In this document: positions 3 to 22,770 of the stretch, in pieces
Layout: every line of letters begins with the position of its first letter
Numbering within the stretch: the stretch's first letter is position 1
Notes under the pieces: generated by a model
Database searches by the model: none
What the model saw: the letters and a program-made list of their open reading frames with translations, nothing else
What the model was told of the DNA's origin: nothing
Made by a program: the position numbers and the translations under genes
Source: Candidatus Aceula lacicola
GTDB taxonomy: Bacteria; Omnitrophota; Gorgyraeia; Zapsychrales; Aceulaceae
Direction: 5' to 3'
NCBI GenBank assembly: GCA_030765785.1
Contig: JAVCCC010000039.1
Location: forward strand, 1 to 36,577
Length of the DNA: 36,577 nt

Positions 3-1345
3 ATTTATGATTTATTTTCTAGAGGTGTCAACTGGTCAGATATCAATGTTTTAAGTGACCAAGGTGTCAACTGGACAAGCATCTATGATTTATCTTCTAG
101 AGGCGTCAATTGGGAAGACATCAATGTCTTAAGTGACCAAGGTGTCAATTGGGCAAGCATTTATGATATGAGTTCACGTGGTATCAATTGGGAAGATATC
201 AATGTCTTGAGCGATCAAGGCGTCAACTGGTCAGATATCAATGTGTTGAGCGACGCAGGTATCAGCTGGGCAGATATTAACGCGATGAGCGACGCAGGCA
301 TCAACTGGTTTGATATTGGGATTCTGTCAGATGCTGGTATTAATTGGCAAGACATTCAAACGTTGTCTGAGAACGGTATCAACTGGGAAGATTTTCAGGT
401 TATGAGCACTAGAGGCGTTAATTGGTCTGATTTTAATGCAATAAGCAAGACTGGAATTAATTGGAATGATTTTGTTACGTTAACGGCTGCAGGAATAAAT
501 TGGGTAGATATAGGTACTCTTTCGGATGCTGGAATCAATTGGGCAGATATGAAAATTATGGGAACAGCAAATGTCAATTGGGCAGACATAAGAATTTTAA
601 CAGAAGCTGGGGTTAATTGGATTGATATCGGTCACTTATCTGATGCAGGTGTCAACTGGCTTGACATTGGAAGCCTTAGTGACGTAGGAGTTAACTGGTC
701 AGATATCGGTGTTTTGGCAGCAACAGGTATTAATTGGGCAGATTTTAGAAGCTTATCTGTTGCAGGTGTCAACTGGGTTGACATTGGAAGCCTTAGTGAC
801 GTAGGAGTTAACTGGTCAGATATCGGTGTTTTGGCAGGAACAGGTGTTAATTGGGCAGATTTTAGAAGCTTATCTGTTGCAGGTGTCAACTGGGTTGACA
901 TTGGAAGCCTTAGTGACGTAGGAGTTAACTGGTCGGATATCGGTGTTTTGGCAGGAACAGGTGTTAATTGGGCAGATTTTGGCGCGTTAACTATTGCAGG
1001 AATTAATTGGACAGACTTTAGGTCCTTTTCTCAAGCTGGCGTTAATTGGATTGATCTTGGGGCCTTAACAGACGCAGGAGTAAATTGGGCAGATATCGCT
1101 GAGCTCACCGCAAAAGGAATTAATTGGGCTGATATTGGGATTCTGTCAGCTGCTGGCATTAATTGGACAGATGTTGTTACGATGTCTAAAAATGGCGTCA
1201 ACTGGGAAGACATAGCGTATATGGCGGGAACAGGTATCAATTGGGATGATATGGGCGTAACAAGCAACTCTGGAGTTAATTGGAGCGATTTGGCTGCGAT
1301 GACAAGTGCAAGTATAAACTGGAATGATATTGCTTATTTAGCTGA
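3..1345 (+). repeat. 39-bp / 13-residue tandem protein repeat array
   Basis: At least 34 in-frame 39-bp units run from the left edge. The core reads G(V/I)NWxD(I/F) and the linker is often LSDAG. One unit has GISW and one has NVNW; the last, SINWNDI, marks the decayed end. At the 5' end the units form a two-unit (78-bp) higher-order repeat in which one member reads WxSIYDxSSRG. The array continues beyond the window, so its true length is unknown. Confidence 0.95.
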
Positions 1346-2126
1346 TAACGCACAGCTGCTGGTAACAAACGTCAATACTATTTTAGGCGTTTGCAACACT
1401 CTTAATTCCTTAACAGGAGACCCTGCCGATGCTTCATCTTCAGATACTTTATTTGGAAGAATTAATCTTCTTTTGGATGTAACAGGGACAGGAACTAATT
1501 TAAGCTCAGATATTGAAACGATATTGGCAACAGTGACCACTCTTGAAGAAAACATTGGAACGTCTGATGATGTCTCTTCTTCATCTACGGTGTTTGGTGA
1601 TTTGAAGGAAATCGAAGACTATGTTGATACGCTTGAGACGTTGTTAGGTGTTTCGGGCGATACAACTGAAGAGAGTGTTTTTGGTGAACTATCTAAGCTT
1701 GCGACAATCAGCGAGCTTGTTGACAAGGCAAAGAGTGGTGCTGAGGCGGCTTTAGGTGAGGCATCAGGTATTCGTCAGGAGCTTGGCGCTAAAGGCATGA
1801 CGCCAAGCGTTTATCAAAAGCTAAAGAATTTAGACACCACAATGGAAGAGCTAAAGATTGCGTCAGAGACAATTTCAGAAAGCCAGCTTGAGACAGGAAA
1901 TCTTGCCTCTGATATGCTTTCAAAGTTATCAAATCTTGTAGAGGAGTCGGCAAAATCTCTTGGCGTTCAGGATATGATCGTCGAATCGCTATCGTCTGTA
2001 GATGCGGGCAATATGGATAAAGTGCATCAAAAGCTTGCAGAAATTACGACAAAGCTAGAGGCTTTAAGAGAAGCTGTTGGGCAACAGGATGTTGTTATTA
2101 AGAGTTGGTTTGAGTCCAGCGAATAA
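3..2126 (+). CDS. Giant-type repeat protein with 13-residue GVNWxDI repeats and coiled-coil-like C-terminus (5' partial)
   Basis: The reading frame is open from the left edge (first full codon at base 3), so the gene starts outside the window; the ATG at 168 is an internal Met of the repeat array. At least 34 copies of a 13-residue unit, approximate consensus GVNWxDIGxLSDA, fill the frame to about base 1345. Asn-Trp and the following Asp-Ile/Phe are almost invariant. The roughly 260-residue tail changes character: three spaced copies of a motif ending in TLFG, TVFG or SVFG, then a Leu/Glu/Lys-rich stretch that looks helical or coiled-coil. It ends in WFESSE with no membrane segment or LPXTG-like signal. 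I do not recognise the family. Giant repeat proteins are known in Omnitrophota, and a surface or adhesive role is a guess. The gene ends 44 bp before an exported membrane protein and heads the ATPase cluster. Confidence 0.85.
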   Translation: MYDLFSRGVNWSDINVLSDQGVNWTSIYDLSSRGVNWEDINVLSDQGVNWASIYDMSSRGINWEDINVLSDQGVNWSDINVLSDAGISWADINAMSDAGINWFDIGILSDAGINWQDIQTLSENGINWEDFQVMSTRGVNWSDFNAISKTGINWNDFVTLTAAGINWVDIGTLSDAGINWADMKIMGTANVNWADIRILTEAGVNWIDIGHLSDAGVNWLDIGSLSDVGVNWSDIGVLAATGINWADFRSLSVAGVNWVDIGSLSDVGVNWSDIGVLAGTGVNWADFRSLSVAGVNWVDIGSLSDVGVNWSDIGVLAGTGVNWADFGALTIAGINWTDFRSFSQAGVNWIDLGALTDAGVNWADIAELTAKGINWADIGILSAAGINWTDVVTMSKNGVNWEDIAYMAGTGINWDDMGVTSNSGVNWSDLAAMTSASINWNDIAYLADNAQLLVTNVNTILGVCNTLNSLTGDPADASSSDTLFGRINLLLDVTGTGTNLSSDIETILATVTTLEENIGTSDDVSSSSTVFGDLKEIEDYVDTLETLLGVSGDTTEESVFGELSKLATISELVDKAKSGAEAALGEASGIRQELGAKGMTPSVYQKLKNLDTTMEELKIASETISESQLETGNLASDMLSKLSNLVEESAKSLGVQDMIVESLSSVDAGNMDKVHQKLAEITTKLEALREAVGQQDVVIKSWFESSE
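645..981 (+). repeat. 117-bp higher-order repeat (three 39-bp units), about three near-identical copies
   Basis: Copies begin at 645, 762 and 879 with exact 117-bp spacing. Each encodes AGVNW(L/V)DIGSLSDV, then GVNWSDIGVLA, then a unit ending in WADF. They differ at only a few bases, whereas neighbouring 39-bp units differ widely. This points to recent unequal crossover or gene conversion inside the array. Confidence 0.9.
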
Positions 2127-2170: not shown

Positions 2171-3559
2171 TTGATTTATAAGAATTATTTAAAAGGGCTG
2201 TTATCCATTGTTTTTATTTTCTTATCTACTGCGTCTTTGTCTGCGCAGAGTCTTTCTATTAATCTAGTTGCTGTTAATGGAACAGATTCTGCTCAAGAGA
2301 CCCCACTCAAATATTATCTTCCCAAAGAGCTTAAGCCGCAGGATATTGTTAATGCTGGTGAGCTTGAAGTGGAATATGATTTAGAAAGAAAAGCTTATTT
2401 TGTGCATGGAAATTTTGATCTGGAACCAAAAGAGTCTCGGACTTTTAAGTTGCAAGTCAAAGATGTGTGGAAAGTCGATCCTGCCGATCTTGAGATCTTA
2501 AAACAGCAAATTGATAAGAATCTGGAAAGATTAGAAGATAGTGAGTTTCATGAGTCAGCAGCAACATTGCGAAATGGCATGTTTAAGAAGATGGAGTATG
2601 TTCTTGAGCGACAACAGAAATTTGAAAATAATATCGAAAGACGCATTGAAGAGTATCGAGCTAATGCTGATATGATCGACGAGCTTAAGCGAAATGCTTT
2701 TTCCACAGGTTATTTAACTTCATATCCTCTCCAGCCGGAACTTGAAACAGATACGGTTAAGCTGATCATTGAAGTAGAAAATCCTTCTTCAGAAGAGGTG
2801 CAAACAGTTTCGTACAGACATTATTTACCACAAGAAATCCGATCATCGCATATAGTTGACGCCCAAGGTTTTGAGGTTCGATTTGATGGAGACAAAGGAC
2901 AGACTTATTTAGCAAAGGAAGAAGAGTTTCAGCCCGGAGAAAAGAAACGGTATATTATTGTTTTGAGAAATGCTTGGAATATTCCAAAGCCAGTCATTGA
3001 CTCTCTTTATAAGCGCGCTCAGAGTTCATTGAATGCTATATTGGAGACAAATGGCAATGATGAGCTTAAGAAAAGCGCAGATTTCTTGTCGAAAAAGATT
3101 TTTGGAAATATTAAACTTATTCAAGAATCTCAGAAAAAAGAAGATTCCATACGAGAACATATTGGTGTGTTTCGAGTAAATAAAGAGCGATACGAAAAAG
3201 CGGACGAAGCCTTGAAACAGCTTGAACGTCTCTTGGCCGTTATTAGTACTAAAAAACTTGAAGAACTTAAAGACCTTGAAAAGTCAAAGGTAAAAAATAT
3301 TTTAAGTAAAATTCAAGCTTTGAGAGGTATGGCGGCTTTGTCTGAAGCTCTCCTTGGTAGGCGTCCATCACTGACTATTATATGGAGAATTATTTGGGGC
3401 ATTTTAACGTTCATTGCTTTATTTACAAGTATTCATTTTTTTACTTGGCAAAAACGATCTAAGCTTATGGGTGAAGAGCATGCAGCGGAAACGGGTGGTG
3501 AGCTTAAAGAAATTGGCGATGCAGAAGAAGATGAAAAAAAGGAAGAAGGATCCGGTTAA
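2171..3559 (+). CDS. Exported coiled-coil membrane protein with two homologous modules
   Basis: The TTG start gives a signal peptide (hydrophobic residues 8-25, ending SLSAQS); no strong Shine-Dalgarno is visible. Two similar modules follow. Each has a beta-rich domain with a YYLPKE / HYLPQE motif and a P(K/G)E-x(3)-(F/Y) strand (about residues 28-105 and 195-275), then a long charged helical segment likely to form a coiled coil. Near the C-terminus, after LLGRRPS, is one membrane helix (about 402-425) and an acidic cytoplasmic tail of about 35 residues (DAEEDEKKEEGSG). Predicted topology is a periplasmic stalk, one anchor and a short cytoplasmic tail. The family is not recognised. Its position between the giant repeat protein and the ATPase genes suggests a linker or stator role, which is inference. 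A candidate -10 box (TATAAT, 3607-3612) lies just downstream, before the alpha gene. Confidence 0.8.
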   Translation: MIYKNYLKGLLSIVFIFLSTASLSAQSLSINLVAVNGTDSAQETPLKYYLPKELKPQDIVNAGELEVEYDLERKAYFVHGNFDLEPKESRTFKLQVKDVWKVDPADLEILKQQIDKNLERLEDSEFHESAATLRNGMFKKMEYVLERQQKFENNIERRIEEYRANADMIDELKRNAFSTGYLTSYPLQPELETDTVKLIIEVENPSSEEVQTVSYRHYLPQEIRSSHIVDAQGFEVRFDGDKGQTYLAKEEEFQPGEKKRYIIVLRNAWNIPKPVIDSLYKRAQSSLNAILETNGNDELKKSADFLSKKIFGNIKLIQESQKKEDSIREHIGVFRVNKERYEKADEALKQLERLLAVISTKKLEELKDLEKSKVKNILSKIQALRGMAALSEALLGRRPSLTIIWRIIWGILTFIALFTSIHFFTWQKRSKLMGEEHAAETGGELKEIGDAEEDEKKEEGSG

Positions 3560-3642: not shown

Positions 3643-5208
3643 TTGGGATCTTTAAGGTACACAGAAGAAGGTTGTGTCCGCTGTATTCGAGGTTGCATCG
3701 TTATTGTTACAGGCTTTGAGAACTGTATTAATGGCCAGTTGATTCGGTTCGGATACGGAACAGAAGGAATTATCCTTGGGTTTGATGAAGAGGAAGCACA
3801 GATTTTAATTGTTAAAGAAGAAGATAAGATTAAAACTGGCGACAAAGCCACGGCTTCGTTGGAGCCATTTAATACTCCTGTTGGAGAAAAGTTTATAGGA
3901 CGCATCATTAATCCTTTGGGTGAAGTTTTAGATGGGCTAGGGCCTCTGGAAGCTGATGCAGAGTACCCTATTTTTATTGATGCTCCAGCAATCCTGACCA
4001 GAGATCCTTTGTGCAAAACGCTTGCAACTGGTATCAAGGTTGTTGATATGATGATTCCTTGCGGCTTTGGACAGAGAGAGTTGATCTTGGGCGACAAAAT
4101 GACTGGCAAGACAACCATCGTAACCGACACAATTCTTAATCAAAAAGACACGGATGTTATTTGTATCTATTGTGCAATTGGAAAAGCACGTTCTGCCTTA
4201 GCTAAGGTTGTTCAGCTATTTCAGGATCGTGATGCATTTGATTATTCGCTCATTGTTGCGGCATATGCGTCCGCTCCGCCTGGTCAGCAATATTTGGCTC
4301 CTTATGTTGCGTGTTCTGTTGGAGAGTATTTTATGCATCAAGGCAAGAATGTTTTTATCGGATTTGACGACTTTACTAAACATGCTTGGGCGTATCGAGA
4401 AATTTCTCTTTTGCTCGGACGCCCGCCTGGTCGAGATTCTTATCCTGGAGATATCTTTTATCTTCATTCAAAAATGATTGAGCGCGCTGCTTTTATGGAC
4501 AAGGAGCATGGTCAAGGGTCAATGACGTTTTTTCCAATTGTTGAAATTTTGGAAGGTGATTTAACTGGATATATTTCTTCAAATCTTGTTTCAATGACTG
4601 ATGGGCAGATTTATCTAAGTACTCCTCTTTTTGGTGAAGGGCAAAAGCCTGCTGTTGATCTTGGGCTTTCAGTTTCTCGAGTTGGAAGCAAGGTCCAGTG
4701 GAAGTCTGTCAAGAGTCTTAGTGGCTCACTTCGCTTGGAATATGTTCAATATAAGGAGCTGATGCGCATCTCAAAATTAAAAACATCTGGTCAAAGCGAA
4801 GAGGCCATACAGCAGCTTAAGGGCGGTGAGATTTTAGGTGAAATTTTAAAACAGGATAAAGATTCTCCCGTGTCATTAGTCGCGCAGGTTTTGATCTTTT
4901 ATGCTGTAAAGAAGAAAATTTTATATGAGCTAACTTTGGATGAGGTCAAAAAATTTCAGTTCGAAATTCTTGATTATGCGAAAGAGAGAAATCCTGATTT
5001 GCTTAAAATTATTGCTGAGCGTCAAGATCTTGACGAAGAGATTGAAAACGGGATGTCGGAGATTTTAGAGCAATACGTAAAAGAAGTTTCTAAAGATAGG
5101 CCGAAAGATGAAGATGATGAAGAAGAGGGAGTTAGCGTTGGCGTTGATGCGCTAGATGCAGCTACTTCGAAGAAGTCAGTTGAAGGACAAGAGGAGAAAA
5201 AAGAGTAG
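3643..5208 (+). CDS. atpA: Divergent F-type ATPase subunit alpha
   Basis: Regulatory, non-catalytic nucleotide-binding subunit of an F1 head. The P-loop is GDKMTGKT (residues 150-157; usual form GDRQTGKT) and the Arg finger lies in SVSRVG (R346). RPPGRDSYPGD and MTDGQI match the family. The TTG start follows GGAGGG with 6-bp spacing; the ATG at 3639 is out of frame and stops within six codons. The protein begins directly at the beta-barrel crown (GCVRCIRG aligns with GTIVSVSDG of E. coli alpha), so the roughly 20-residue N-terminal segment that normally binds delta is missing. A Lys/Glu/Asp-rich tail of about 35 residues extends past the usual C-terminus. It is first in the order alpha-epsilon-c1-c2-b/delta-gamma-beta, unlike both the standard atp operon and the N-ATPase operon. 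Family assignment is firm; the special role is inferred. Confidence 0.93.
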   Translation: MGSLRYTEEGCVRCIRGCIVIVTGFENCINGQLIRFGYGTEGIILGFDEEEAQILIVKEEDKIKTGDKATASLEPFNTPVGEKFIGRIINPLGEVLDGLGPLEADAEYPIFIDAPAILTRDPLCKTLATGIKVVDMMIPCGFGQRELILGDKMTGKTTIVTDTILNQKDTDVICIYCAIGKARSALAKVVQLFQDRDAFDYSLIVAAYASAPPGQQYLAPYVACSVGEYFMHQGKNVFIGFDDFTKHAWAYREISLLLGRPPGRDSYPGDIFYLHSKMIERAAFMDKEHGQGSMTFFPIVEILEGDLTGYISSNLVSMTDGQIYLSTPLFGEGQKPAVDLGLSVSRVGSKVQWKSVKSLSGSLRLEYVQYKELMRISKLKTSGQSEEAIQQLKGGEILGEILKQDKDSPVSLVAQVLIFYAVKKKILYELTLDEVKKFQFEILDYAKERNPDLLKIIAERQDLDEEIENGMSEILEQYVKEVSKDRPKDEDDEEEGVSVGVDALDAATSKKSVEGQEEKKE

Positions 5209-5221
5209 TTAAGGTGAAGTC

Positions 5222-5536
5222 ATGGCAAGATACAAAATTACATTTAAGTTGACTGTTATGACACCTGATGCTTTGGTTTATGAGAATGAGGTTGAGAGTG
5301 TTTTTTTAACAGGGGATCGTGGTGAATATGAAGTGCTTCCGTACCATTATCCGGTTTTAGGTATTTTAAAAAGGGGAAGCATTATTGTTGACTGGAAAGA
5401 GTCGATAAGAATTAAGTCTGGTTTGATACGTTTTTTTGCGAATGATTGTATTATTTTGATTGAGCCAGATCTGACGAGAAGAAAGGTTAAGGAGAGAGAA
5501 GAGGAGATTGCTTACACAGAGGAAACGGATAATTAA
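5222..5536 (+). CDS. atpC: F-type ATPase subunit epsilon, beta-sandwich domain only
   Basis: At 104 residues this matches only the N-terminal beta-sandwich of epsilon. TVMTPDALVYENEVESVFLT corresponds to the VVSAEQQMFSGLVEKIQVT region of E. coli, followed by GDRGEYEVLPYHYPVL and a GLIRFFANDCIILI strand. The C-terminal helical hairpin, which in many bacteria inhibits ATP hydrolysis, is absent; only a short KEREEEIAYTEETDN tail remains. The ATG follows AAGGTG, 13 bp after alpha. If read correctly, this complex lacks epsilon-type self-inhibition, which would favour ATP hydrolysis as an available mode. That last point is inference. Confidence 0.87.
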   Translation: MARYKITFKLTVMTPDALVYENEVESVFLTGDRGEYEVLPYHYPVLGILKRGSIIVDWKESIRIKSGLIRFFANDCIILIEPDLTRRKVKEREEEIAYTEETDN

Positions 5537-5570: not shown

Positions 5571-5792
5571 ATGCAATGGCGCGAAACCTTTATTATTATT
5601 GCGATTATGTTTGTGGCTGTTATGGGCCCATCGATTGTTATTGCGGTTTTAGGATATGCTGTCGTTAAAGCGCTTGGGCGCAATCCTTCTGCCGCATCAA
5701 AGATTTTTATGGGTATTATTGTTATGCTGATTTTTGTTGAGGCGATATCTATTGTTGCTATTTTGGTTATTTTTCAGCTGTTCGGAAGATAG
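5571..5792 (+). CDS. atpE: F-type ATPase subunit c (c1), proteolipid
   Basis: A 73-residue helical hairpin: helix 1 about residues 7-34, polar loop GRNP (R37-N38-P39), helix 2 about 46-71. The ion-binding carboxylate is E57 in FVEAI, exactly 20 residues after the loop Arg, the same spacing as R41-D61 in E. coli subunit c. The Gln of helix 1 and the Ser after the Glu that mark Na+-binding rings are not present (the residue after E57 is Ala), so proton binding is more likely. The ATG has only a weak upstream purine tract (TAGGGA). It lies 34 bp after epsilon and 14 bp before a second c-type gene. Confidence 0.9.
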   Translation: MQWRETFIIIAIMFVAVMGPSIVIAVLGYAVVKALGRNPSAASKIFMGIIVMLIFVEAISIVAILVIFQLFGR

Positions 5793-5806
5793 GAGGATGT
5801 TAATTT

Positions 5807-6040
5807 ATGGGTTCTGCTGCGCTTATATTATTTTTAATATTTTTCTTTATTATTGCGATTCCTTGTGTTGGTGTTGCAATGCTAGGGTCCGATCTTGTGA
5901 ATCGATTGGCTTTTCATCCAAGCAAAACACCTGCAATACAGTTGAGAGTTATCCTAAAGTTAGTTATTTTGGAAATAATTTCTTTTGGGATGTTGATGGG
6001 CGCATATCATATTCTTGCTGATTACGGGCAAGGGGTATAA
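5807..6040 (+). CDS. Second, divergent subunit c-like proteolipid (c2)
   Basis: A 77-residue hairpin of the same layout as c1: helix 1 about residues 4-34, loop FHPS (F36-H37-P38), helix 2 about 44-70 with E56 in ILEIIS. E56 sits 20 residues after F36, so the carboxylate aligns with E57 of c1, but the loop Arg that contacts gamma/epsilon is replaced by Phe. The glycine-rich packing motif of helix 1 is also weak. GGAGG precedes the ATG, and b-delta follows after 12 bp. The likeliest reading is a second ring subunit, giving a mixed c-ring as known in Acetobacterium; a non-rotating partner is also possible. The call rests on layout and spacing, not strong sequence similarity. Confidence 0.72.
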   Translation: MGSAALILFLIFFFIIAIPCVGVAMLGSDLVNRLAFHPSKTPAIQLRVILKLVILEIISFGMLMGAYHILADYGQGV

Positions 6041-6052
6041 GGAGATTAATTT

Positions 6053-6796
6053 ATGAGTGGAATTTTAATAGTACAGTTTTTAGTTCTTACTTTTTTTGTT
6101 TCGGGTGTTATCATTTTTGTTCTGCATCGAACATTGATATCAAGCACGGAAGGTGCGGTCAATCGTCTTAATTCGGAGACAGAAAGTGCGCGCACCAAGC
6201 AAGCTGAATTAAATCGAAAAATAAAAGAGGCTGACGAGGAGCTTGTTAAAAGAAAGGCTGAAGCCGATGAGGTGGTTAAGAAAATGATGGAAGACGCTGA
6301 AGAAGCGGCAAAAAATGAACAAGCTACGATTGTTGGTAAGGCTCGTAAGACGGCTGAGGATGTTATTACAAAGGCGCAGCGCACTAAGGATATTATTCGA
6401 AAAGATATTGAAAAGGAAGTGCAGCTCCAGATGATTAATGAATGTGTCAAAATTATGGAGGTTGTTTTTAGCGAGAGGGCTAGACAGGTGTTTAGTGAGC
6501 AGCTTGTCAGAGAATTTATAGAAGAATTAAAAAAAGTTGATGCGCATCAGATTAACTTAGATGCCGATGCGATCGATGTTGTTGTGTCTCAAGAAATTTC
6601 TGAAGGAATAAAGAAAGATATTGAAGATATTCTTCTCGGCAAGCTTGGGCGAAAAGTTGTATTTAATTATCAAGTTGATCCAAAAATTTGCGGGGGTGCG
6701 ATTTTAAGATTTGGGACTTTGGCTCTCAATGGAAGTTTAGCCAATATTTTTAAGGAGACTGCGATTTCAATGAAAATGGATATTGAGAAGGAATAA
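6053..6796 (+). CDS. F-type ATPase subunit b-delta fusion (peripheral stalk)
   Basis: 247 residues. A single N-terminal membrane helix (about residues 3-24) leads into a charged coiled coil rich in Lys, Glu and Ala (about 30-130), as in subunit b. The C-terminal part (about 130-245) resembles delta/OSCP: a helical segment, a predicted beta strand KVVFNYQVD, then the delta signature CGGAILRFG (C213-G214-G215) followed by LNGSLANIF, matching the GGIVVRVGD...DGSV region of delta. One chain can therefore supply the membrane anchor, stalk and F1 cap. Fused b-delta chains are known in mycobacteria. AGGAG precedes the ATG, and gamma follows after 9 bp. Separate b and delta genes are absent from the window. 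Confidence 0.87.
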   Translation: MSGILIVQFLVLTFFVSGVIIFVLHRTLISSTEGAVNRLNSETESARTKQAELNRKIKEADEELVKRKAEADEVVKKMMEDAEEAAKNEQATIVGKARKTAEDVITKAQRTKDIIRKDIEKEVQLQMINECVKIMEVVFSERARQVFSEQLVREFIEELKKVDAHQINLDADAIDVVVSQEISEGIKKDIEDILLGKLGRKVVFNYQVDPKICGGAILRFGTLALNGSLANIFKETAISMKMDIEKE

Positions 6797-6805
6797 GAAG
6801 AAGTC

Positions 6806-7657
6806 ATGGGAAAAGCAAATAAAATCAAAGGTGATTTAGACGATATTATTGAGCTTGTTGAGATTATTCAGATTTTAAAAGATGTTGCGGATAATAAATT
6901 TCATACGCTTGCGGGTCGCAAAGATCGTTTTTCACGATTCGGTGAGTCTTTTGTTGAATTTTTTCGGATGATTAGTCTTTCGAGAGTTCGCCACCCGCTT
7001 GTTTCCAATGACAACCCTCGTACAGGAATTGTTGTTATTACATCAGAAGCAGGTTTTATGGGGGATTTAAATACGAAAGTTATCCGTTTTGCTTTGAACG
7101 AACGGGAAAAGTATCCGAATTGTCAGATTATTGCGGTTGGAAGAAAAGGGGCTGCAAAGATGGAGAATGTTGTGAAGGACATGAAAGTTTTTGATGAGAT
7201 TCAAGACACTGGACTTTATCAGGTTGCGATTGATGTCAAAGATTATCTTTATTCTGAAATTATGGAAGGACGCATGGGCCGCACGCTTGTCATTTATCCG
7301 TGGTCTAAGAATTTTATGGTTCAAAAAGCAAGGATTGTAAAGCTTTTGCCTTGTGATGAACTTTTGTCAAAACAGGAAGAGTTTGTTGACAATATAGAGC
7401 ATGTTATCGAAGAATCTGATCCGATAGATATTATTGAGCAACTTTCATCCATGTGGCTTGTTTGCCGTTTTTATGAAATGCTTCATGACACATCGATTTC
7501 AGAGGCTGCGGCACAATCGCAACAATTGGAATCAAGTTTGGATAAAATGAAAAAAACAAAAAAAGGGGTTAAGTTGGCTTTTCAAAAGGCAAAAAAGTCA
7601 GATATTGATAAAAGCATGAGAGAAGTATTTAGTGCTCGAATGATGTCAAAACGTTAA
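6806..7657 (+). CDS. atpG: F-type ATPase subunit gamma (central shaft)
   Basis: 283 residues, close to the usual 285-290. The N-terminal helix with DVADNKF corresponds to the KAMKMVAASK region. ITSEAGFMGDLN matches TSDRGLCGGLN, followed by a Rossmann-like central domain (CQIIAVGRKG). The C-terminal helix contains SISEAAAQSQQLESSLDKM, which replaces the usual SEARMMAMKSATDNA signature, and a FSARMM end. Two long helices flanking a globular domain are kept, so a rotating shaft is plausible. The start has a purine-rich AAGAAG upstream. Divergence is greater than for alpha and beta. Confidence 0.88.
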   Translation: MGKANKIKGDLDDIIELVEIIQILKDVADNKFHTLAGRKDRFSRFGESFVEFFRMISLSRVRHPLVSNDNPRTGIVVITSEAGFMGDLNTKVIRFALNEREKYPNCQIIAVGRKGAAKMENVVKDMKVFDEIQDTGLYQVAIDVKDYLYSEIMEGRMGRTLVIYPWSKNFMVQKARIVKLLPCDELLSKQEEFVDNIEHVIEESDPIDIIEQLSSMWLVCRFYEMLHDTSISEAAAQSQQLESSLDKMKKTKKGVKLAFQKAKKSDIDKSMREVFSARMMSKR

Positions 7658-7676: not shown

Positions 7677-9179
<1,503 letters not shown>

Positions 9180-9187
9180 ACACAGCT

Positions 9188-11398
9188 ATGATTAAAGGAT
9201 CTGACAAGAATTTATCGGATGCGATCGTTGAGATTGGAATTTTGCCAAAAGCAGAAGTCGATAGTTATTTGAAAGCCATTCAGCCGACAGAAGAGAGTTT
9301 GGATGCCTATTTAATTCGAAACGGCATTCTATCCAAACAGCAAATCTTATCATCACTCGAAAAAAAATTCGGCATACAAGTTATTGACTTGCAAAAAGCA
9401 CAAATTGATCAGGGTGTCATCGAACGAATCCCTGTCAAGCTCGCTTGGTATTATAAGTTTATGCCGATTCGAATTGAAAACAAGGTTTTGACGATCGCTG
9501 CATCAATCCCTTTGGACGTAAAAGTACAAGATGAAATTCGTGTGAACCTTGGGTATGAGCCACATGTTTTGCTTGCCTGTGAGCTCGATATTCTAGAGGC
9601 GTTAAAGAAATATTATGGGTTAGCTGCGGATATGATTGATCGGATTTTGACAAAGCAACCTGCAAAGAAAAGTGTATTGCAAGGTGCTGACCATTGGGTT
9701 GAGGATATTGAGCAGAAATCGTCTGATGCGTCTGTCACGAAACTTGTTAATCAAATTATTCTTGAGGCATACCGAAAAAGAGCAACGGATATTCATATTG
9801 AACCTTATCGAGACAAAGTAAGATTTCGATATCGTATTGACGGAGCGCTTGTCGATGCCAACCTTCCGATGGATGTGAAACATTTTATTTTGCCAATTCT
9901 TTCGCGTATCAAGATTATGTCTAATTTGAGCATTGTTGAAAAGCGTATTCCGCAAGATGGAAGCGCTGTTGTGAAGACTCAGGATCAAACGCTTGACCTT
10001 CGTGTCTCAACGATTCCTACACCGCAAGGCGAGAGCATGGTTATCCGTATTTTGCCAACAAAGGTTATGAATTTTAGATTAGGAGAACTTGGGTTGGATC
10101 CAGAAAACGTGACGGTTTTCAGGAAACTTATTTCAAAAGCGCATGGCGTTATTTTTGTTACGGGTCCAACGGGGAGTGGAAAAACAACGACATTGTATGC
10201 TTGTTTAAATGAAGTGAATTCAATTCAACGAAAGATTATTACGATTGAAGACCCTGTTGAATATGAGATGGAAAATGTGACACAAATTCAAGTCAATCCA
10301 AAAGTAGGCTTGACGTTTTCTGCGGGCCTTCGAAGCGTTTTGCGCCACGATCCCGATATTATTATGGTTGGTGAGGTTCGAGACTTAGAAACGGCTGAGA
10401 TTGCTATTCGAACGGCTTTGACTGGGCATCTTGTTTTTTCAACGCTGCATACAAATGATGCGGCTAGTGGCATTACACGTTTGGTCGAAATGAATGTTGA
10501 GCCATATCTTGTTTCGTCAAGCATCGAAGCTTTTGCTGCACAACGTTTAGTGCGGGTGATTTGCACAAAGTGTAAGGTGGAGATGGAATGCCCAGATGAG
10601 CTGCGAAGAGAAATTGCTTCTGATTTAGGGATGCAAGATGTTCAAGAGATAAGAATTTTTAAGGGAAATGGCTGCGACCGTTGCGGTGGTACAGGTTATT
10701 ATGGTCGAACCGCTATTTATGAAATCTTATTAATGACGGATGCTATTCGTTCCGCTATTTTAGAGAAATCAAGAGCTGATTTTATTAAAAAAATTGCTGT
10801 TGAGAACGGTATGCGGACATTGAGGCAAGATGGATGGCAAAAGGTTTTAGAGGGAACAACGACTCCATCTGAAGTTATGAATGTTACGGTGCGTGAGGAG
10901 ATAAGTGATTTTCAGGAAAAAGAGGAAAGCGTCTTCATTGAGAAGATCTCGACTCATCCGAAAAGAAAAAGCGTTGATGATGAAAAGCGATATGAATTAA
11001 TTGCAAAAGATGCTCTTGCGGAAAAAAAAGAAATTAATATTAGAACACATCTTCGATTAAATAAAGATTTAGTAGTTGAATATCGTTTGCTTCAGGGTGA
11101 TTCTGCGTCTGTGAATGCTGGATCAGACAAAGATTGGCAGAAAACACATACAAAGAATATCGGGGCTGGGGGAATCTTAATGAAATCATCTTTTCCTTTG
11201 CCCATCGGCTCTGTCATTGAGATGAAGTTAGTTTTAGAGCCGACAGAAAGTCCGGTCGTTGAGTGCTTGTCTCGTGTGTGCCGTGTCGAGAAAGATGGTG
11301 ATGGTAAAAATTATAATATTGTTATTTATTTTTTAGATATTTCAAGTGCGGATCGTGCTCGCATTTCAAATTATGTTAAGGAAGAAGCTGAATCGTAG
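9188..11398 (+). CDS. gspE: Type II secretion / pilus assembly ATPase GspE with C-terminal PilZ domain
   Basis: Cytoplasmic hexameric ATPase that powers pseudopilus assembly. An N-terminal GspE/MshE-type domain (about residues 1-150) is followed by the ATPase core with Walker A GPTGSGKT (326-333), Asp/His boxes (EDPVEYEME, LVFSTLHTND) and a tetracysteine zinc site (C459, C462, C496, C499). After about residue 610 comes a PilZ-like domain with RTHLR (R619, R623) and NIGAGG (N657-G662), which match the RxxxR and D/NxSxxG c-di-GMP motifs except for Ser to Gly. The length of 736 residues against about 500-570 for common GspE is explained by this fusion. It suggests direct control of secretion by c-di-GMP. 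The ATG has no clear Shine-Dalgarno, consistent with translational coupling to the upstream beta gene. Confidence 0.93.
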   Translation: MIKGSDKNLSDAIVEIGILPKAEVDSYLKAIQPTEESLDAYLIRNGILSKQQILSSLEKKFGIQVIDLQKAQIDQGVIERIPVKLAWYYKFMPIRIENKVLTIAASIPLDVKVQDEIRVNLGYEPHVLLACELDILEALKKYYGLAADMIDRILTKQPAKKSVLQGADHWVEDIEQKSSDASVTKLVNQIILEAYRKRATDIHIEPYRDKVRFRYRIDGALVDANLPMDVKHFILPILSRIKIMSNLSIVEKRIPQDGSAVVKTQDQTLDLRVSTIPTPQGESMVIRILPTKVMNFRLGELGLDPENVTVFRKLISKAHGVIFVTGPTGSGKTTTLYACLNEVNSIQRKIITIEDPVEYEMENVTQIQVNPKVGLTFSAGLRSVLRHDPDIIMVGEVRDLETAEIAIRTALTGHLVFSTLHTNDAASGITRLVEMNVEPYLVSSSIEAFAAQRLVRVICTKCKVEMECPDELRREIASDLGMQDVQEIRIFKGNGCDRCGGTGYYGRTAIYEILLMTDAIRSAILEKSRADFIKKIAVENGMRTLRQDGWQKVLEGTTTPSEVMNVTVREEISDFQEKEESVFIEKISTHPKRKSVDDEKRYELIAKDALAEKKEINIRTHLRLNKDLVVEYRLLQGDSASVNAGSDKDWQKTHTKNIGAGGILMKSSFPLPIGSVIEMKLVLEPTESPVVECLSRVCRVEKDGDGKNYNIVIYFLDISSADRARISNYVKEEAES

Positions 11399-11418: not shown

Positions 11419-12624
11419 ATGCATTTTAAATACCAAGGGAAAAATAAGGTTGGCGAGAGTGTTTCTGGAAAAGTTTCTGCGCGCACAAAAGAAGAGGCGA
11501 TTGAAACCATTAGCCATCAAGGGATTTTGCCTATTTCAATAGAGGAATATTCACCCTTTTCTAAGACTTTTATACGAGAGGCAGACTCTAAGGTTAGCTC
11601 AAAGCAAGTGTATATGTTTAGTCGTCAGCTATCAAGTCTTATTAAGTCTGGGGTTTCGATTTTGCGAGCGCTAGAAGTTGTCGGGGAACAAGCAAGCAAT
11701 CCTCGTTTTGTCGATATTTTGTGTTCTATTCGTCAAGGCATCAAAGAAGGGCGCAATTTCTCCGATTGCCTTTCGGACTATCCTCGCATTTTTTCTTCAT
11801 TTTATGTCGCTATGGTATCCGTCGGGGAAGAGGGTGGAAATCTAAGAGAAATCTTAGCTGCGCTTGCCACATATCAAAAAAAGCAACAACAGATTAAGTC
11901 AAGCGTTCGCACAGCGCTTGCTTATCCAGTGTTTATGGGAATCGTCGGATTGATGACGGTTATTTTTATTTTGACGTTTGTTATGCCTAAAATTACAGTG
12001 TTATTTATCAATATTGGTCAAAGCCTTCCTTTGCCGACAAAGATTTTGATGGGAGTTAGTCATGCGATCCGCTCAGGCTGGTTTATATTTATTCCCTTAG
12101 GCGCGCTCATTGTTTTTTCTCTTATCCGTTGGATGCAATCGAAAAAAGGAAAATATATTGTTGATGATTTAAAATTGCGAATACCTATTGTGAAGTCTCT
12201 TGTTTTGAAAGTTGAGCTTGGTCGATTTTGCCGCACACTCGAACTTCTTTTAGGGAGCGGCGTTTCACTTTTAAGGGCTATCAATGTTGCGGCGCCAACG
12301 CTCGGAAACGAATTGATCAGGACTGAAATTTTAAAAAGCTGCGACGGGTTATCCTCGGGCGAGTCGCTAGCGAATAGCTTTGCTCAATGTCGCTATGTAA
12401 CGCCCATGATGATTAGCCTTGTCAAGATTGGGGAGGAGTCCGGCCTCTTAGAAGAAACCTTACATGACGTTGCTGATACGTATGAGCAGGAGACCGATGA
12501 AGCCGTCCAAACGTTTACCACTGTTTTGGAGCCTGTCATGATTCTTTTGGTTGGGGCAATCGTCGGAATGGTTATCATTGCCATGTTGCTACCGATATTT
12601 CAAATGGACTTGATAGCGAGTTAG
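11419..12624 (+). CDS. gspF: Type II secretion inner-membrane platform protein GspF
   Basis: 401 residues, typical for the family. An N-terminal FKYQGKNKVGESVSGKV beta segment precedes two repeated GspF helical domains. Family motifs include SRQLSSLIKSGVSILRAL and, in the second copy, CRTLELLLGSGVSLLRAI. Membrane helices are at about 165-190, 215-235 and 370-395, with the C-terminal helix LEPVMILLVGAIVGMVIIAM diagnostic. The protein anchors GspE and GspL/M in the inner membrane. It lies 20 bp after gspE with AAAAGGA ahead of the ATG. Confidence 0.96.
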   Translation: MHFKYQGKNKVGESVSGKVSARTKEEAIETISHQGILPISIEEYSPFSKTFIREADSKVSSKQVYMFSRQLSSLIKSGVSILRALEVVGEQASNPRFVDILCSIRQGIKEGRNFSDCLSDYPRIFSSFYVAMVSVGEEGGNLREILAALATYQKKQQQIKSSVRTALAYPVFMGIVGLMTVIFILTFVMPKITVLFINIGQSLPLPTKILMGVSHAIRSGWFIFIPLGALIVFSLIRWMQSKKGKYIVDDLKLRIPIVKSLVLKVELGRFCRTLELLLGSGVSLLRAINVAAPTLGNELIRTEILKSCDGLSSGESLANSFAQCRYVTPMMISLVKIGEESGLLEETLHDVADTYEQETDEAVQTFTTVLEPVMILLVGAIVGMVIIAMLLPIFQMDLIAS

Positions 12625-12639
12625 GTCGATTAAATTTCA

Positions 12640-13446
12640 ATGAAATTTCTAAGAGTTCTACTTCTTTTTTGTCTTTTGGGGTTTTGTTTAATCGGTTTTG
12701 TTTTTAGTCAGGAATCCAACTGGCAAAATTTTAAAGGAAAACATTTTATTGTTCTTTATCAGAGTAGCGCTGACAAGTCTGAAGCCAAGAAAATTTTGAG
12801 ATCGGCAGAAAAATATTATGGATCCATTGGCCGTAAGATTGGATATACTCGGTATTCTAATTTTTGGACATGGGATGATCGCGTTAAAATTATTTTGTTT
12901 CCGACTAAAGAACTCTTTTTAGATCAGACAGGACAACCCGAATGGTCTCGCGGTGGAGCCTTAGATATTGGTTTTTCAGGACAAAAAGTTATTGTTAGCT
13001 ATGCAGGCCAATCGCAGTTTTTAAGAGAGGTCTTGCCTCATGAAATTAGCCATTTAGTGCTGTCTGATTTTATTGGACTTGATCACAAGATTCCCATTTG
13101 GTTTAGCGAGGGGGTTGCGCAGCTAGGCGAGGAGGGAAAGGCTAAAAAAGCAGAGCTTGTTATGCGCATGATGATTCGACTCGACCGGTATTATCCGCTT
13201 AGATCTTTAGCTCGCATTGATATTCGAAAAGAAAAGAATGAGGAATACGTTGAATTATTTTATGCCGAAAGCGTGTCGGTTGTTGATTTCTTAATTAAGA
13301 AATTTGGGTCAGACGCGTTTGGGCGATTGTGCCGAAAGATGAGTGATGGATTAAGCTTTGAAGCTGCGATGAAATTTGTTTACCAGGGCATGTTGTCATC
13401 TTATTCTGAGTTAGAAAAGAAGTGGATTCAATATTTAAATCATTAA
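12640..13446 (+). CDS. Exported HExxH metallopeptidase (peptidase MA-like) inside the secretion operon
   Basis: 268 residues. A signal peptide (residues 1-24, ending VFSQES) is followed by a domain starting NWQNFKGKHFIVLYQ. HEISH (134-138) plus E157 in WFSEG form a gluzincin HExxH-18-E zinc site, as in the peptidase MA-like family. The active residues look intact. It sits between gspF and gspG, an unusual place for a peptidase. It may process a secreted substrate or remodel peptidoglycan for the secretion channel, or be a substrate itself; these are guesses. The ATG has no strong Shine-Dalgarno. Confidence 0.8.
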   Translation: MKFLRVLLLFCLLGFCLIGFVFSQESNWQNFKGKHFIVLYQSSADKSEAKKILRSAEKYYGSIGRKIGYTRYSNFWTWDDRVKIILFPTKELFLDQTGQPEWSRGGALDIGFSGQKVIVSYAGQSQFLREVLPHEISHLVLSDFIGLDHKIPIWFSEGVAQLGEEGKAKKAELVMRMMIRLDRYYPLRSLARIDIRKEKNEEYVELFYAESVSVVDFLIKKFGSDAFGRLCRKMSDGLSFEAAMKFVYQGMLSSYSELEKKWIQYLNH

Positions 13447-13458
13447 TGCGGAGGAAAC

Positions 13459-13884
13459 ATGAATATTCTATTTAAAAAACGAAATCAAGGATTTACATTG
13501 GTTGAAATCTTGCTTGTTGTTGTTATCATTGGTGCTTTGTCAGCGATGATTATCCCTCGCCTTACGGGACGCTCTGAGCAGGCAAAAGTTGTAGCAGCAA
13601 AAGCCGATATCAATTCGCACATTGCAACAGCTTTAAAGCTTTATGAGCTGGATAATGGATTTTTTCCAACAACAGATCAAGGCTTAGATGCTTTGTTGAA
13701 GAAGCCAGTAGCAAGTCCAGCGCCTCTAAATTGGAATGGGCCTTACATCGAGAGAAAGCCTTTAGACCCTTGGGGTAATGTTTATCGGTATGCGTCTCCA
13801 GGTCGCCATCGTCCAGACTACGATCTTTATTCTGACGGAAAAGACACCTCTTCTCAAGAAGACGACATTACAAATTGGGAGTAG
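13459..13884 (+). CDS. gspG: Major type II pseudopilin GspG
   Basis: 141 residues. Prepilin signal with cleavage in QG|FTLVE, Glu+5 and a hydrophobic helix (LLVVVIIGALSAMIIP). The C-terminal GspG domain has GPYIERKPLDPWGN and a DLYSDGKD calcium-loop-like segment. It builds the periplasmic pseudopilus. GGAGG lies ahead of the ATG and the peptidase gene ends 12 bp upstream. Confidence 0.96.
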   Translation: MNILFKKRNQGFTLVEILLVVVIIGALSAMIIPRLTGRSEQAKVVAAKADINSHIATALKLYELDNGFFPTTDQGLDALLKKPVASPAPLNWNGPYIERKPLDPWGNVYRYASPGRHRPDYDLYSDGKDTSSQEDDITNWE

Positions 13885-13890
13885 AGTTAG

Positions 13891-14310
13891 TTGATAAAAA
13901 TATTTCAAAAGAAAAAAGGTTTCTCATTTATAGAGGTTATGGCAACTGCTTGTGTTTTAGCTTTTGGACTTGTTGCCATATATCAGGCATTCTTTACATC
14001 TCTTAATTATCTAAATCATATGACCTACCGGTTGCACGCGATGGTGCTTTTGGATAATAAGATCGAGATGATTCAAAAACAACTTGAGTTAAAAGATCAG
14101 ATTAATGTAGGGCATGTCAACGATCTCTATTCGGCTCGAATTAATAATCGCGATATTGACTATGAATACGAGATGTCTATTGAAGATATCGAGAATATCG
14201 ACGGTGTTTATCAGCTAAGCCTGGCTGTCAAATGGGTCGAGAGTGCCAGAGAGATAAGAATTTCTAAAACGGTTTATATTTTTAAGCTTGGCAAAACAGA
14301 AGAGACTTAA
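13891..14310 (+). CDS. gspI: Minor pseudopilin GspI-like
   Basis: 139 residues with a TTG start. Prepilin signal KKG|FSFIEVMATACVLAFG with Glu+5. Position after gspG and before gspJ, together with the helix composition and a LLDNKIEMIQ segment like the GspI family, supports the call. The rest is poorly conserved. Its stop is 6 bp before the next ATG. It could also be called PilV-like. Confidence 0.82.
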   Translation: MIKIFQKKKGFSFIEVMATACVLAFGLVAIYQAFFTSLNYLNHMTYRLHAMVLLDNKIEMIQKQLELKDQINVGHVNDLYSARINNRDIDYEYEMSIEDIENIDGVYQLSLAVKWVESAREIRISKTVYIFKLGKTEET

Positions 14311-14316
14311 TCTGAT

Positions 14317-14928
14317 ATGATAAAATTTTTTCGACATCATGATATGAATAAAAAAGCAATGACGATGGTTGAAGTTTTGCTCGTGGTTGCTCTTTTCTCA
14401 ACATTAAGCATTGCAGTCTTTCAAACATTTTCCAACGGATTGAAAATCTGGGATTACGGGACAGCATCGTTTAAAGAGGAGGATGTTTCACTCTTTTTAG
14501 ATAAAATAAGCAATGACTTGCGAAATTCGGTGTTGTTTTCAACAATACCATTTAGAGGAGATTCAAAAGGTATCGAGTGGGCAAGTCTCGTTATGCTTAA
14601 TGCTGATCCAAAGAGTTCCGAGCAGAGACCGCATACTCGACAGATTGGAAAAGTAATGTATTTCTTTGATAAAAGCAAAGGAAAGATTTTTAGAGTCCAG
14701 GCAAATTATGGACAGACCTTAAAAGGTAAATATCAGACCCCGCGCGTGTTAGTCAGCAACGTTGAAGCCTTGATGTTTAGATATTTCTATCGGCAAGGAA
14801 AAGAGCTTTTGGTTGTTTCAAGCGCAAAAAATATTCTTCCGGCTATGATTGAAGTTAGCGTCCGATATCGAACGGATAATGATATTAGAAAAATGGTTAA
14901 ACGGATTGATGTTCCGGTGGGGTTATAG
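14317..14928 (+). CDS. gspJ: Minor pseudopilin GspJ-like
   Basis: 203 residues, the usual GspJ length. Prepilin motif KKA|MTMVEVLLVVALFS, with Ala instead of Gly at -1 and Glu at +5. GLKIWDYG and later LVSNVEALMFRYFY are GspJ-like. Its TAG stop shares a base with the GTG start of gspK, so translation is coupled. Confidence 0.82.
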   Translation: MIKFFRHHDMNKKAMTMVEVLLVVALFSTLSIAVFQTFSNGLKIWDYGTASFKEEDVSLFLDKISNDLRNSVLFSTIPFRGDSKGIEWASLVMLNADPKSSEQRPHTRQIGKVMYFFDKSKGKIFRVQANYGQTLKGKYQTPRVLVSNVEALMFRYFYRQGKELLVVSSAKNILPAMIEVSVRYRTDNDIRKMVKRIDVPVGL

Positions 14929-15959
14929 TGAAGCATAATCGAATGAGTAATAATTCAGGAATGATTTTAGTTTTAGCGCTCTGGGCGATGGGGCTGTTAA
15001 GTGTTTTTGCTATTTATCTTGGAATTCATGCGCGACAACGTATGATTTTGCTGTCTCGATTAGAAACTCGTGACAATCTTCATTTATCTGCAAAATCTGG
15101 AATCGGAAAAGCGATTTCTTTTATTAACACGAAGAATAATGATCGATCGGCCTGGGATTCGTTAGATTTTAAAGTCGCCTTGATGAATAATCCTGAAATT
15201 TTTTCTGATATTGATCTTGGAAATTTTAGATGTGAGATTTCATATGATTTTTTTGATAAAAGTTTCCATGAAATTAAAAAACGTTATGGTATGATAGATG
15301 AAGAATCTAAGATTAATATTAATATCGTAGGAAGAAACGAAATATCAAGATTGCTTCAGGTTGTGATCGGGCTGAATGATGAAGAGGCAGAAGGCTTGGC
15401 GCTTTCAATCATTGATTGGCGAGAAGAAGGGGAAAGTGTTTTAGAGGGATTTTTTAGCGACAATTATTATAATAATTTAAGAGATCCGTATCCACCTAAA
15501 GATGATGATTTTGAGAGCATTGATGAGCTTCTTTTTGTTGAGGGTATCAATCAAGATATTTTAGATCGTTTGCGTTGCTTTGTGACAATTTATGGCGACG
15601 GACGCGTTAATGTTAATACGGCTTCATGGCATGCTTTGGTTGCTTTAGGATTTGATGAGGACGTTGTTGACAAAATTGTGAGCATTCGCAACGGTGTTGA
15701 TGAAAAGCCAGCAACAGGTGACGACTATTTTTTTCATAGCGTTAAAGATTTTACCTCCAAGATAGAGTCTTCAGGATCTTTGAGCGAGCATGAGATTTAT
15801 CGGGCTCAGCAAATTGTTCTTGCGGATAAGATTGTGATATCGGGATTTTTTTATCAAATTTTAGCCGTTGCGGAAAAAAAGAGATCAGAAAATAGAAAGA
15901 ATATCAACTGTGTCTATAATTCTTTGGATCGGATTATAGAATATTGGAATGAAATTTAA
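14928..15959 (+). CDS. gspK: Minor pseudopilin GspK-like (tip subunit)
   Basis: 343 residues with a GTG start inside the gspJ stop (taGTG). The N-terminus NSGMILVLALWAMGLLSVFA is a class III-type helix lacking Glu+5, as is typical of GspK. ESKININ and a SAM-like helix-hairpin-helix region (DGRVNVNTASWHALVALG) are the family signature. It caps the pseudopilus with GspI and GspJ. Confidence 0.9.
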   Translation: MKHNRMSNNSGMILVLALWAMGLLSVFAIYLGIHARQRMILLSRLETRDNLHLSAKSGIGKAISFINTKNNDRSAWDSLDFKVALMNNPEIFSDIDLGNFRCEISYDFFDKSFHEIKKRYGMIDEESKININIVGRNEISRLLQVVIGLNDEEAEGLALSIIDWREEGESVLEGFFSDNYYNNLRDPYPPKDDDFESIDELLFVEGINQDILDRLRCFVTIYGDGRVNVNTASWHALVALGFDEDVVDKIVSIRNGVDEKPATGDDYFFHSVKDFTSKIESSGSLSEHEIYRAQQIVLADKIVISGFFYQILAVAEKKRSENRKNINCVYNSLDRIIEYWNEI

Positions 15960-15976
15960 TGGACTTAATTTAATAT

Positions 15977-17488
15977 ATGGGACAAAGAGACAGAGAATAC
16001 ATAAGCTGCTTGTTGACGGAAGAGATCTTAAAGGTTGCCCAGCTAAAGATTTCCGCTTCTGCTTCGAAGGTTGAGAATTTATCACTGAGCGATATTAAAG
16101 GGAAATCTGATGAGGAGATAAAAAGTGAACTCGAAAGGATCTTGTCTGGATTCAAGTTATCGAAATCAAAGGCTAGGGCTGTTTGCGTCGTTCCTCCAAG
16201 CATGACGATCACAAAGAATATTGAAATTCCCTCTTTAGAGCCTAAAGAGATTGAGTCCATTATTGATTTGCAGGCAGGCCGCCATACGCCATATTCTCGA
16301 GAAGAGATTGTTATTGGGTATATTAATTTTGGTGTTTATCAAAAGAATTATAGCAAAATTCTTCTCGTCATTGTGAATCGACAAGTCATTATGCGCCAAA
16401 TCAATATTTTGGAATCTGTTGGCGTTAAGGTTGAAAAAATATTCTTCGCCCCTGAAGTTAAATCTGGATTTTATGCTAAAACTTTGGGCGTTTTTGACGA
16501 TCAGCTGCCGGTTGGCATTATTGATGTTAATAGTACGTTTACAGATTTTACAATTATGCTTCGAGGCATTGCGATTGCTTGTCGCAGTATCCCTGTTGGG
16601 GCGAAAGATATTATTGATGAAGGGGAAGAGGCAAAGAAACGTTTTGTTGAGGAGTTAAAGCAATCTGTGGAGTCGTATCAGAGTGAAGATATTGAGAAAA
16701 TTCCGCAGAAATATGTTTTAGCTAAAAAAAGAGAAATGACGGATGGAATAAAGGATCTTGCAGCGGCTACCTTGGGAGCTAGTTTTGAAATATTATCTTA
16801 TGACGACAGCCTTGTTTTTTCAGATAAGGCAAAGAAGGTGTTTGATGAAAATAATGCAGAATCATTTTTGGATGTTTTATCGCCTTCGCTTGCGTATGAT
16901 GGAAGACAAATTGATTTGTTGCCGGAAGAAATTAAAACACAAAGAATTATTGAAAAGCAAGGTCAAGAGGGGATTAAGTTTGGAGCGCTTGCGATCATTC
17001 TTTTAGTTTTAAGTGGTGCTATTTTTATTAGTAAAATTTATTTTAAGAGTTCGCTGCTTGAGAAAATTCAAACGCAATACAACGAAACAGAAAGAGCAGC
17101 AGGAAGCTTAGAGAAAATTTCAACAAAGACACGCATTATCAAGGGTTACTTAGAAAGTCGCCTTGTTCCTTTGGATGTTGTTGAGGAGTTGTATCGAATC
17201 ATTCCAGACGATATTTATCTAAAAAGTTTTGTGTTAGATGAAAACGGAAAGATTTCAATTGATGGCACGTCTGACTCTATGTCTCAGGTTTTTGCTCTCG
17301 TCGGAACTTTAGAGGATTCAGGGATTTTTAAAGGGGTCAAAACTAAATCAACAACGGCAAAAAAAGAACGCGGGAAAGATGTGGCATCATTTGAAATTGT
17401 TTTTATGCTGGAAAGCGCGGAAGACGGCGATGAAGAAGAGCTTGAAGAAGAGCAGATTGCAGAAGCACCTGCAGAAACGACGGAATAG
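15977..17488 (+). CDS. GspL / PilM-PilN fusion-type assembly protein
   Basis: 503 residues. The cytoplasmic N-terminal part (about 1-330) has an actin-like PilM/GspL fold: VCVVPPSMTITKNIEIPSL and the phosphate-loop-like GIIDVNSTFTDF. A single membrane helix (about 335-355, FGALAIILLVLSGAIFI) and a periplasmic PilN-type coil and ferredoxin-like domain follow. An acidic tail (EEELEEEQIAEAPAETTE) is unusual. It should link GspE to the pseudopilus. GspL and PilM+PilN are related, so the label depends on which system this is. No clear Shine-Dalgarno is seen; the start is 17 bp after gspK. Confidence 0.8.
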   Translation: MGQRDREYISCLLTEEILKVAQLKISASASKVENLSLSDIKGKSDEEIKSELERILSGFKLSKSKARAVCVVPPSMTITKNIEIPSLEPKEIESIIDLQAGRHTPYSREEIVIGYINFGVYQKNYSKILLVIVNRQVIMRQINILESVGVKVEKIFFAPEVKSGFYAKTLGVFDDQLPVGIIDVNSTFTDFTIMLRGIAIACRSIPVGAKDIIDEGEEAKKRFVEELKQSVESYQSEDIEKIPQKYVLAKKREMTDGIKDLAAATLGASFEILSYDDSLVFSDKAKKVFDENNAESFLDVLSPSLAYDGRQIDLLPEEIKTQRIIEKQGQEGIKFGALAIILLVLSGAIFISKIYFKSSLLEKIQTQYNETERAAGSLEKISTKTRIIKGYLESRLVPLDVVEELYRIIPDDIYLKSFVLDENGKISIDGTSDSMSQVFALVGTLEDSGIFKGVKTKSTTAKKERGKDVASFEIVFMLESAEDGDEEELEEEQIAEAPAETTE

Positions 17489-17497
17489 GAATAAAAC

Positions 17498-22737: not shown

Positions 22738-22770
22738 CAACTTTGAACTTAAAAATTAAAGGTGGCATTT

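Follow-up and report, generated by a model that had tools for sequence, protein, structure and literature searches.

An F-type ATPase-like operon of Candidatus Omnitrophota with two c-type subunits, no detectable subunit a and linked giant-protein and type II secretion genes

The stretch of DNA analysed here (hereafter the window; 36,577 nucleotides), which was assigned to the genus Aceula group of Candidatus Omnitrophota, harbours a tight one-strand operon coding for a repeat protein, a 462-aa protein and the F1Fo-like subunits alpha, epsilon, c1, c2, b-delta fusion, gamma and beta. Downstream of beta the operon continues with a GspE/PilB-type ATPase carrying a PilZ domain, GspF, a peptidase and the pseudopilins of a type II secretion system (T2SS). 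No gene for subunit a was detected. Since subunit a is lost and the genes of a giant protein and of a secretion apparatus adjoin, the cluster is probably an ATP-burning motor instead of an energy producer. The reading favoured here, to which a probability of about 0.6 is given, is that the complex is a dedicated, non-energetic rotary F1/c-ring motor, which hydrolyses ATP and is not coupled to the flow of ions.

The genome carrying the window (1.5 Mb, 96% complete) has Candidatus Aceula meridiana as its nearest named relative, and encodes an ordinary V/A-type proteolipid on a different contig. The coordinates of the genes are collected in Table 1. The gene order in which the repeat protein is followed by the 462-aa protein, the F1-like genes and the T2SS genes is recurrent across the phylum, although it is not universal, as the copy in the single-contig genome G126 lacks a neighbouring giant ORF. 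Two subtypes of the locus were distinguished: type A, to which the window belongs (c1 and c2 present), and type B, where alpha follows b-delta and mostly one c gene is found. Other arrangements include a locus with three consecutive c genes in one relative (L071, 4496-5190) and another with two alpha genes in tandem and one c (L047, 9941-12879). Meanwhile, neither an ortholog of the family alpha nor a family c was detected in a 96% complete genome of the same genus (G001), hence the system can be lost. Outside the operon the window also encodes a second secretion ATPase, which is TadA/CpaF-like and not part of the T2SS set (22762-24126), and, on the minus strand, a large serine-recombinase-like ORF continuing past the contig end (35072-36577), which judging by its sequence is likely a mobile element.

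Table 1. Genes of the operon in the window and their features.
Feature	Coordinates	Strand	Characteristics
Secreted repeat protein, 3' end	3..2126	+	'GVNWSDI' repeats of ~22 residues; truncated by the contig edge
462-aa protein	2171..3559	+	signal peptide; beta-sandwich/helix unit in two copies; extended coiled coil; one TM helix near the C-terminus; short tail in the cytosol
F1 alpha	3643..5208	+	atpA 521 bits; Arg finger present; N-terminal ~20-residue helix missing
Epsilon	5222..5536	+	PF02823 only; beta-sandwich domain, C-terminal domain absent
c1, primary proteolipid	5571-5792	+	73 aa; R37-N38-P39 loop, E57
c2, fast-evolving c paralog	5807-6040	+	77 aa; F36-H37-P38, E56; P19-C20 and P38 invariant
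b-delta fusion	6053..6796	+	one N-terminal TM helix, OSCP/delta C-terminus
Gamma	6806..7657	+	gamma subunit
Beta	7677..9179	+	P-loop and catalytic Glu intact
GspE/PilB-type ATPase	9188..11398	+	MshEN, C-terminal PilZ (c-di-GMP) domain
Type II secretion-like genes	11419..18358	+	GspF, M-family peptidase, GspG, GspI-/GspJ-/GspK-like pseudopilins, PilM/N (GspL-like), GspM-like

The catalytic residues of the complex are intact throughout the family, the catalytic motifs being conserved in 102/102 beta subunits (catalytic site) and 109/109 alpha subunits (Arg finger). The family alpha is trimmed at its N-terminus: the median number of residues ahead of the P-loop is 150, versus ~170 in the ordinary alpha of the phylum, and the missing part corresponds to the ~20 N-terminal residues that dock on the peripheral stalk. 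Short epsilon subunits are found in canonical Omnitrophota clusters as well, which counts against the motor reading.

A search of the window's genome with PF00119, the profile of subunit a, returned nothing even at an E-value of 10. Among the 237 genomes of the phylum surveyed, a family c was found at ≥50 bits in 109, and 51 of these, including the window's genome and the single-contig G126, have no PF00119 match. In the remaining 58 genomes the PF00119 gene is never located at the locus, with the nearest copy on the same contig lying 87 kb off. Inspection of 89 complete loci (from the 462-aa gene through GspE; some loci, fetched from two collections, are counted twice) revealed no polytopic candidate ORF, save spurious frames and one borderline count for b-delta. 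The 462-aa protein was considered as a stand-in for subunit a by virtue of an Arg in its TM helix and was rejected, as it has a single TM helix, and the K/R residue at the edge of that helix is only semi-conserved. Provision of subunit a by the ordinary F-ATPase was likewise rejected as a general answer, given the 51 genomes that have no PF00119 match at all. A very divergent subunit a invisible to PF00119 could be encoded at another site of the genome; in Tetrahymena, subunit a is reported to be highly unusual (PMC2903591). The absence of a detectable subunit a from both locus and genome, which the sequence-only reading had not noticed, puts the entire cluster in a different light.

The primary proteolipid c1 matches Pfam ATP-synt_C above the family cut-off, and the sequence-only reading of its loop and carboxylate, as well as of those of c2, with a spacing of 20 residues from loop to carboxylate in each protein, agrees with the ORFs. 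The alignment of 28 type-A c1 orthologs demonstrated that R37, N38 and P39 are invariant and that E57 is present in 27, and the dN/dS of c1 between the window and A. meridiana (0.028/1.04) reveals a dN that is low against dS. Across the family, however, loop and carboxylate behave differently. In the set of primary c proteins (152 sequences, 140 distinct; c2 and degenerate copies excluded) the R-N-P loop is invariant in 140/140 distinct sequences, whereas the carboxylate position is occupied by Glu in 114, Gln in 20, Ala in 3, Thr in 2 and Val in 1. The carboxylate has thus been replaced in 26 of the 140, by at least nine changes on a tree built without that column. No relocated carboxylate was seen in the Gln, Ala, Thr and Val rings: there is almost no acidic residue elsewhere in their membrane helices, and the two that are present sit at the edges of the spans. 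Two further c copies are degenerate, one with Arg replaced by Met and Glu by Gly (L152) and the other with Glu replaced by Gly (L051).

These data bear directly on a rival explanation, in which the complex is an F-type ATPase that does translocate ions; its subunit a would be highly diverged or would be provided in trans by the cell's ordinary F-ATPase, and c2 would do no more than tune the ring. The near-constant E57 of type-A c1 is what would be expected if ions were still bound and is not explained by an uncoupled motor; the b-delta stalk is kept, as in ion-coupled enzymes, and an ordinary subunit a also exists in many relatives. Nevertheless, this explanation seems rather unlikely in view of the many family-bearing genomes, the window's own included, in which PF00119 finds no match, of the complete loci devoid of a polytopic ORF, and of the loss of the membrane carboxylate from a considerable part of the primary c proteins phylum-wide. 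Taken together, intact catalysis and an invariant loop, alongside an often lost carboxylate, a short epsilon and a trimmed alpha, point to selection that keeps ATP hydrolysis and the grip on gamma/epsilon, and not the ion path.

The genes flanking the F1-like set suggest where the work of such a motor could be spent. The repeat protein, whose gene was also noted at L160-L161, is cut by the contig edge in the window, and in a relative (G017) the same gene is a 10,972-aa ORF beside the orthologous locus, with one N-terminal membrane segment. The 462-aa protein (model pLDDT 83; no match of its fold to the PDB) is likely the membrane anchor of the repeat protein. In type-B loci the 462-aa domain and its TM helix form the C-terminus of ORFs sometimes exceeding 3,000 aa, and this natural fusion implies inner-membrane anchoring of the giant protein at the site of the machine. 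Downstream, the order of the secretion genes is the same in relatives, and the major pseudopilin GspG scores 147.7 bits against TIGR01710 (curated cut-off 88.85). Neighbours that are termed type 4a pilus genes in the literature resemble a T2SS here (GspG, GspK), and an unusual peptidase-MA gene lies inside the secretion set (12640-13446). At three type-B loci (L046, L050 and L051) the 462-aa homologue carries a GGDEF-like domain on its cytosolic tail; together with the PilZ domain on the GspE of the window, such tails make control of the system by c-di-GMP likely.

The same neighbourhood could be accounted for by an export ATPase: the F1-like part would, in the manner of FliI/SctN, energise the delivery of the giant protein or of T2SS cargo, with c only anchoring F1 and nothing rotating outside. 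That T2SS genes and a giant secreted protein form a fixed neighbourhood, and that the loop is conserved whereas the carboxylate is not, would both suit it. It is nonetheless improbable, because the retained gamma, epsilon, c and b-delta make up a complete rotor and stalk, and the T2SS already has an ATPase of its own in GspE.

Under the motor reading, hydrolysis of ATP by alpha3beta3 would turn gamma-epsilon and the membrane ring. Most of the ring would be built from c1, c2 being an additional, diverged member either within it or at its edge, and without subunit a the usual ion movement would be absent. The R-N-P loops would hold the ring to gamma/epsilon, making it a mechanical rotor, and the work of this rotor would be delivered to the giant repeat protein, anchored by the membrane protein encoded upstream, and/or to the adjoining type II secretion apparatus. 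A bolder version can be put forward only tentatively, and we regard it as more doubtful than probable: a c ring carrying no ion current would pass the torque of F1 to a giant surface protein (up to ~11,000 residues) that is anchored in the inner membrane and serves attachment, gliding or predation by ultra-small Omnitrophota. Such a machine would constitute a new class of rotary motor, related to the Mycoplasma gliding motor by descent or by analogy, yet with the Fo ring retained.

The second c-type protein is a genuine, constrained and fast-evolving c paralog. On its own, the c2 of the window has no match to a c-family profile; PF00137 recognises 2 of the 29 c2 members singly (best E 0.0049), that of the window not being among them. 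Profile-profile comparison of the c1 and c2 alignments by hhalign, however, gave a match of 98.1% (E 7e-14, 73 columns), which upholds the proposed relation of c2 to c subunits. The predicted structure of c2 is a helical hairpin (pLDDT 81), and the PDB fold neighbours of the model are mostly c-ring subunits, none of them significant. In a tree of 115 c sequences c2 forms a single clade (SH-aLRT 99) that is nested, together with c1, within a c clade belonging to the family itself, and this wider clade is separate from the ordinary F-type c of the phylum (support 99); the inner branching is weak because of the few columns available. Recruitment of c2 from an ordinary F-ATPase c was rejected, as canonical c proteins score 6-16 bits on the c2 profile versus ~36-50 for most family c.

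It had been suggested from the sequence that c2 is a member of a mixed c-ring or a ring-related partner, set apart by the loss of the loop Arg. The first part of this suggestion is reasonable, since c2 is one clade inside the c family of the locus. The second does not hold, and Arg loss as the key change was rejected: homologs that have the Arg, which had been named beforehand as evidence against the idea, make up a part of the clade, the loop position being R in 13 of the 29 orthologs, Q in 8, F in 2 and other residues in 6. The two orthologs with F are those of the window and of its sister species, whereas R is found in the sister genus. Only P19, C20 and P38 are invariant among the 29. A reading of c2 as a duplicate in decay that serves no function by itself is very improbable: its evolution is indeed much faster (mean column identity 48%, versus 79% for c1) and the carboxylate E56, present in 23/29 orthologs, is gone in 6/29, but c2 directly follows c1 in 41/41 loci of the window's subtype in one collection, keeps the above invariant residues, shows a low dN against dS (0.32/1.87, window versus A. 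meridiana) and starts 14 nt past the c1 stop behind an AGGAGG Shine-Dalgarno sequence of its own.

Ion flow through subunit a is normally the sole explanation given for the c ring. A widespread family that has kept the F1 sites and the gamma/epsilon loop and dropped subunit a and often the carboxylate is a natural experiment on the mechanical versus the ion-carrying role of the ring. The operon also unites three traits of Omnitrophota that have been reported apart (a non-respiratory F-ATPase, pilus/T2SS genes and giant ORFs), and provides a candidate, open to testing, for the unknown membrane component of rotary motors like the one behind Mycoplasma gliding.

Compared with known systems, the locus shares with ordinary bacterial F1Fo the homologues of alpha, beta, gamma, epsilon, c, b and delta and the catalytic residues, and differs in lacking subunit a and the alpha H1 helix, in an epsilon reduced to the beta-sandwich, in two c paralogs and in gene order; ordinary F1Fo copies occur separately in many relatives. 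Mixed c-rings are known from the Na+ F-ATPase of Acetobacterium woodii and from the V-ATPase (c/c'/c''), where ions are translocated in conjunction with a subunit a. The present system resembles them in having more than one c-type subunit, whereas here no subunit a was found and c2 has no conserved loop Arg and at times no carboxylate.

The Mycoplasma type 2/3 ATPases and the G1-ATPase have in common with the family an extra F1-like ATPase without subunit a and an alpha without the docking helix, the latter being described for the gliding G1-ATPase of M. mobile (PMC11864180). In M. mobile, GliD was proposed to be a derivative of a b-delta fusion and rotation to be passed to the large surface protein Gli521 (PMC3369863, PMC11864180). 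By definition, however, the Mycoplasma type 2/3 clusters have no homologues of a, b and c and possess their own 12-TM protein 1 and 3-TM protein 5 (PMC3369863), whereas c1/c2 and b-delta are clear homologues here and no polytopic ORF is present. Direct membership in type 2/3 was rejected, since against the curated models (MMOB1660/1670 and MSC_0619/0618) alpha scores 399.5 (cut-off 600) and 299.8 (cut-off 520), and beta 427.4 (cut-off 850) and 392.1 (cut-off 570). The ordinary alpha of the phylum scores higher on the MMOB1660 model than the family alpha does, so that a special closeness of the family to Mycoplasma is not supported. Common descent of the Omnitrophota alpha with Mycoplasma type 2/3 was claimed by Seymour et al. 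2023 (PMC10066038).

The main text of that paper describes a non-respiratory 'symbiotic type 2/3 F-type ATPase' of Omnitrophota near type 4a pilus genes; its case for the ATPase is built from trees of alpha and of beta, and giant ORFs are handled as a trait apart. That text was found to contain no mention of a missing subunit a, c paralogs, Glu-to-Gln rings, an absent alpha helix or a giant-ORF operon. The phylum, the non-respiratory alpha/beta and the T2SS/T4P-type neighbourhood are shared with the loci studied here, although the neighbours called type 4a pilus genes there are of T2SS type here, GspG being above its curated cut-off. The loci are almost certainly the same, and the locus of the window is a variant of these non-respiratory F-type ATPases, of which the ATPase itself, the pilus proximity and the giant ORFs had already been reported there.
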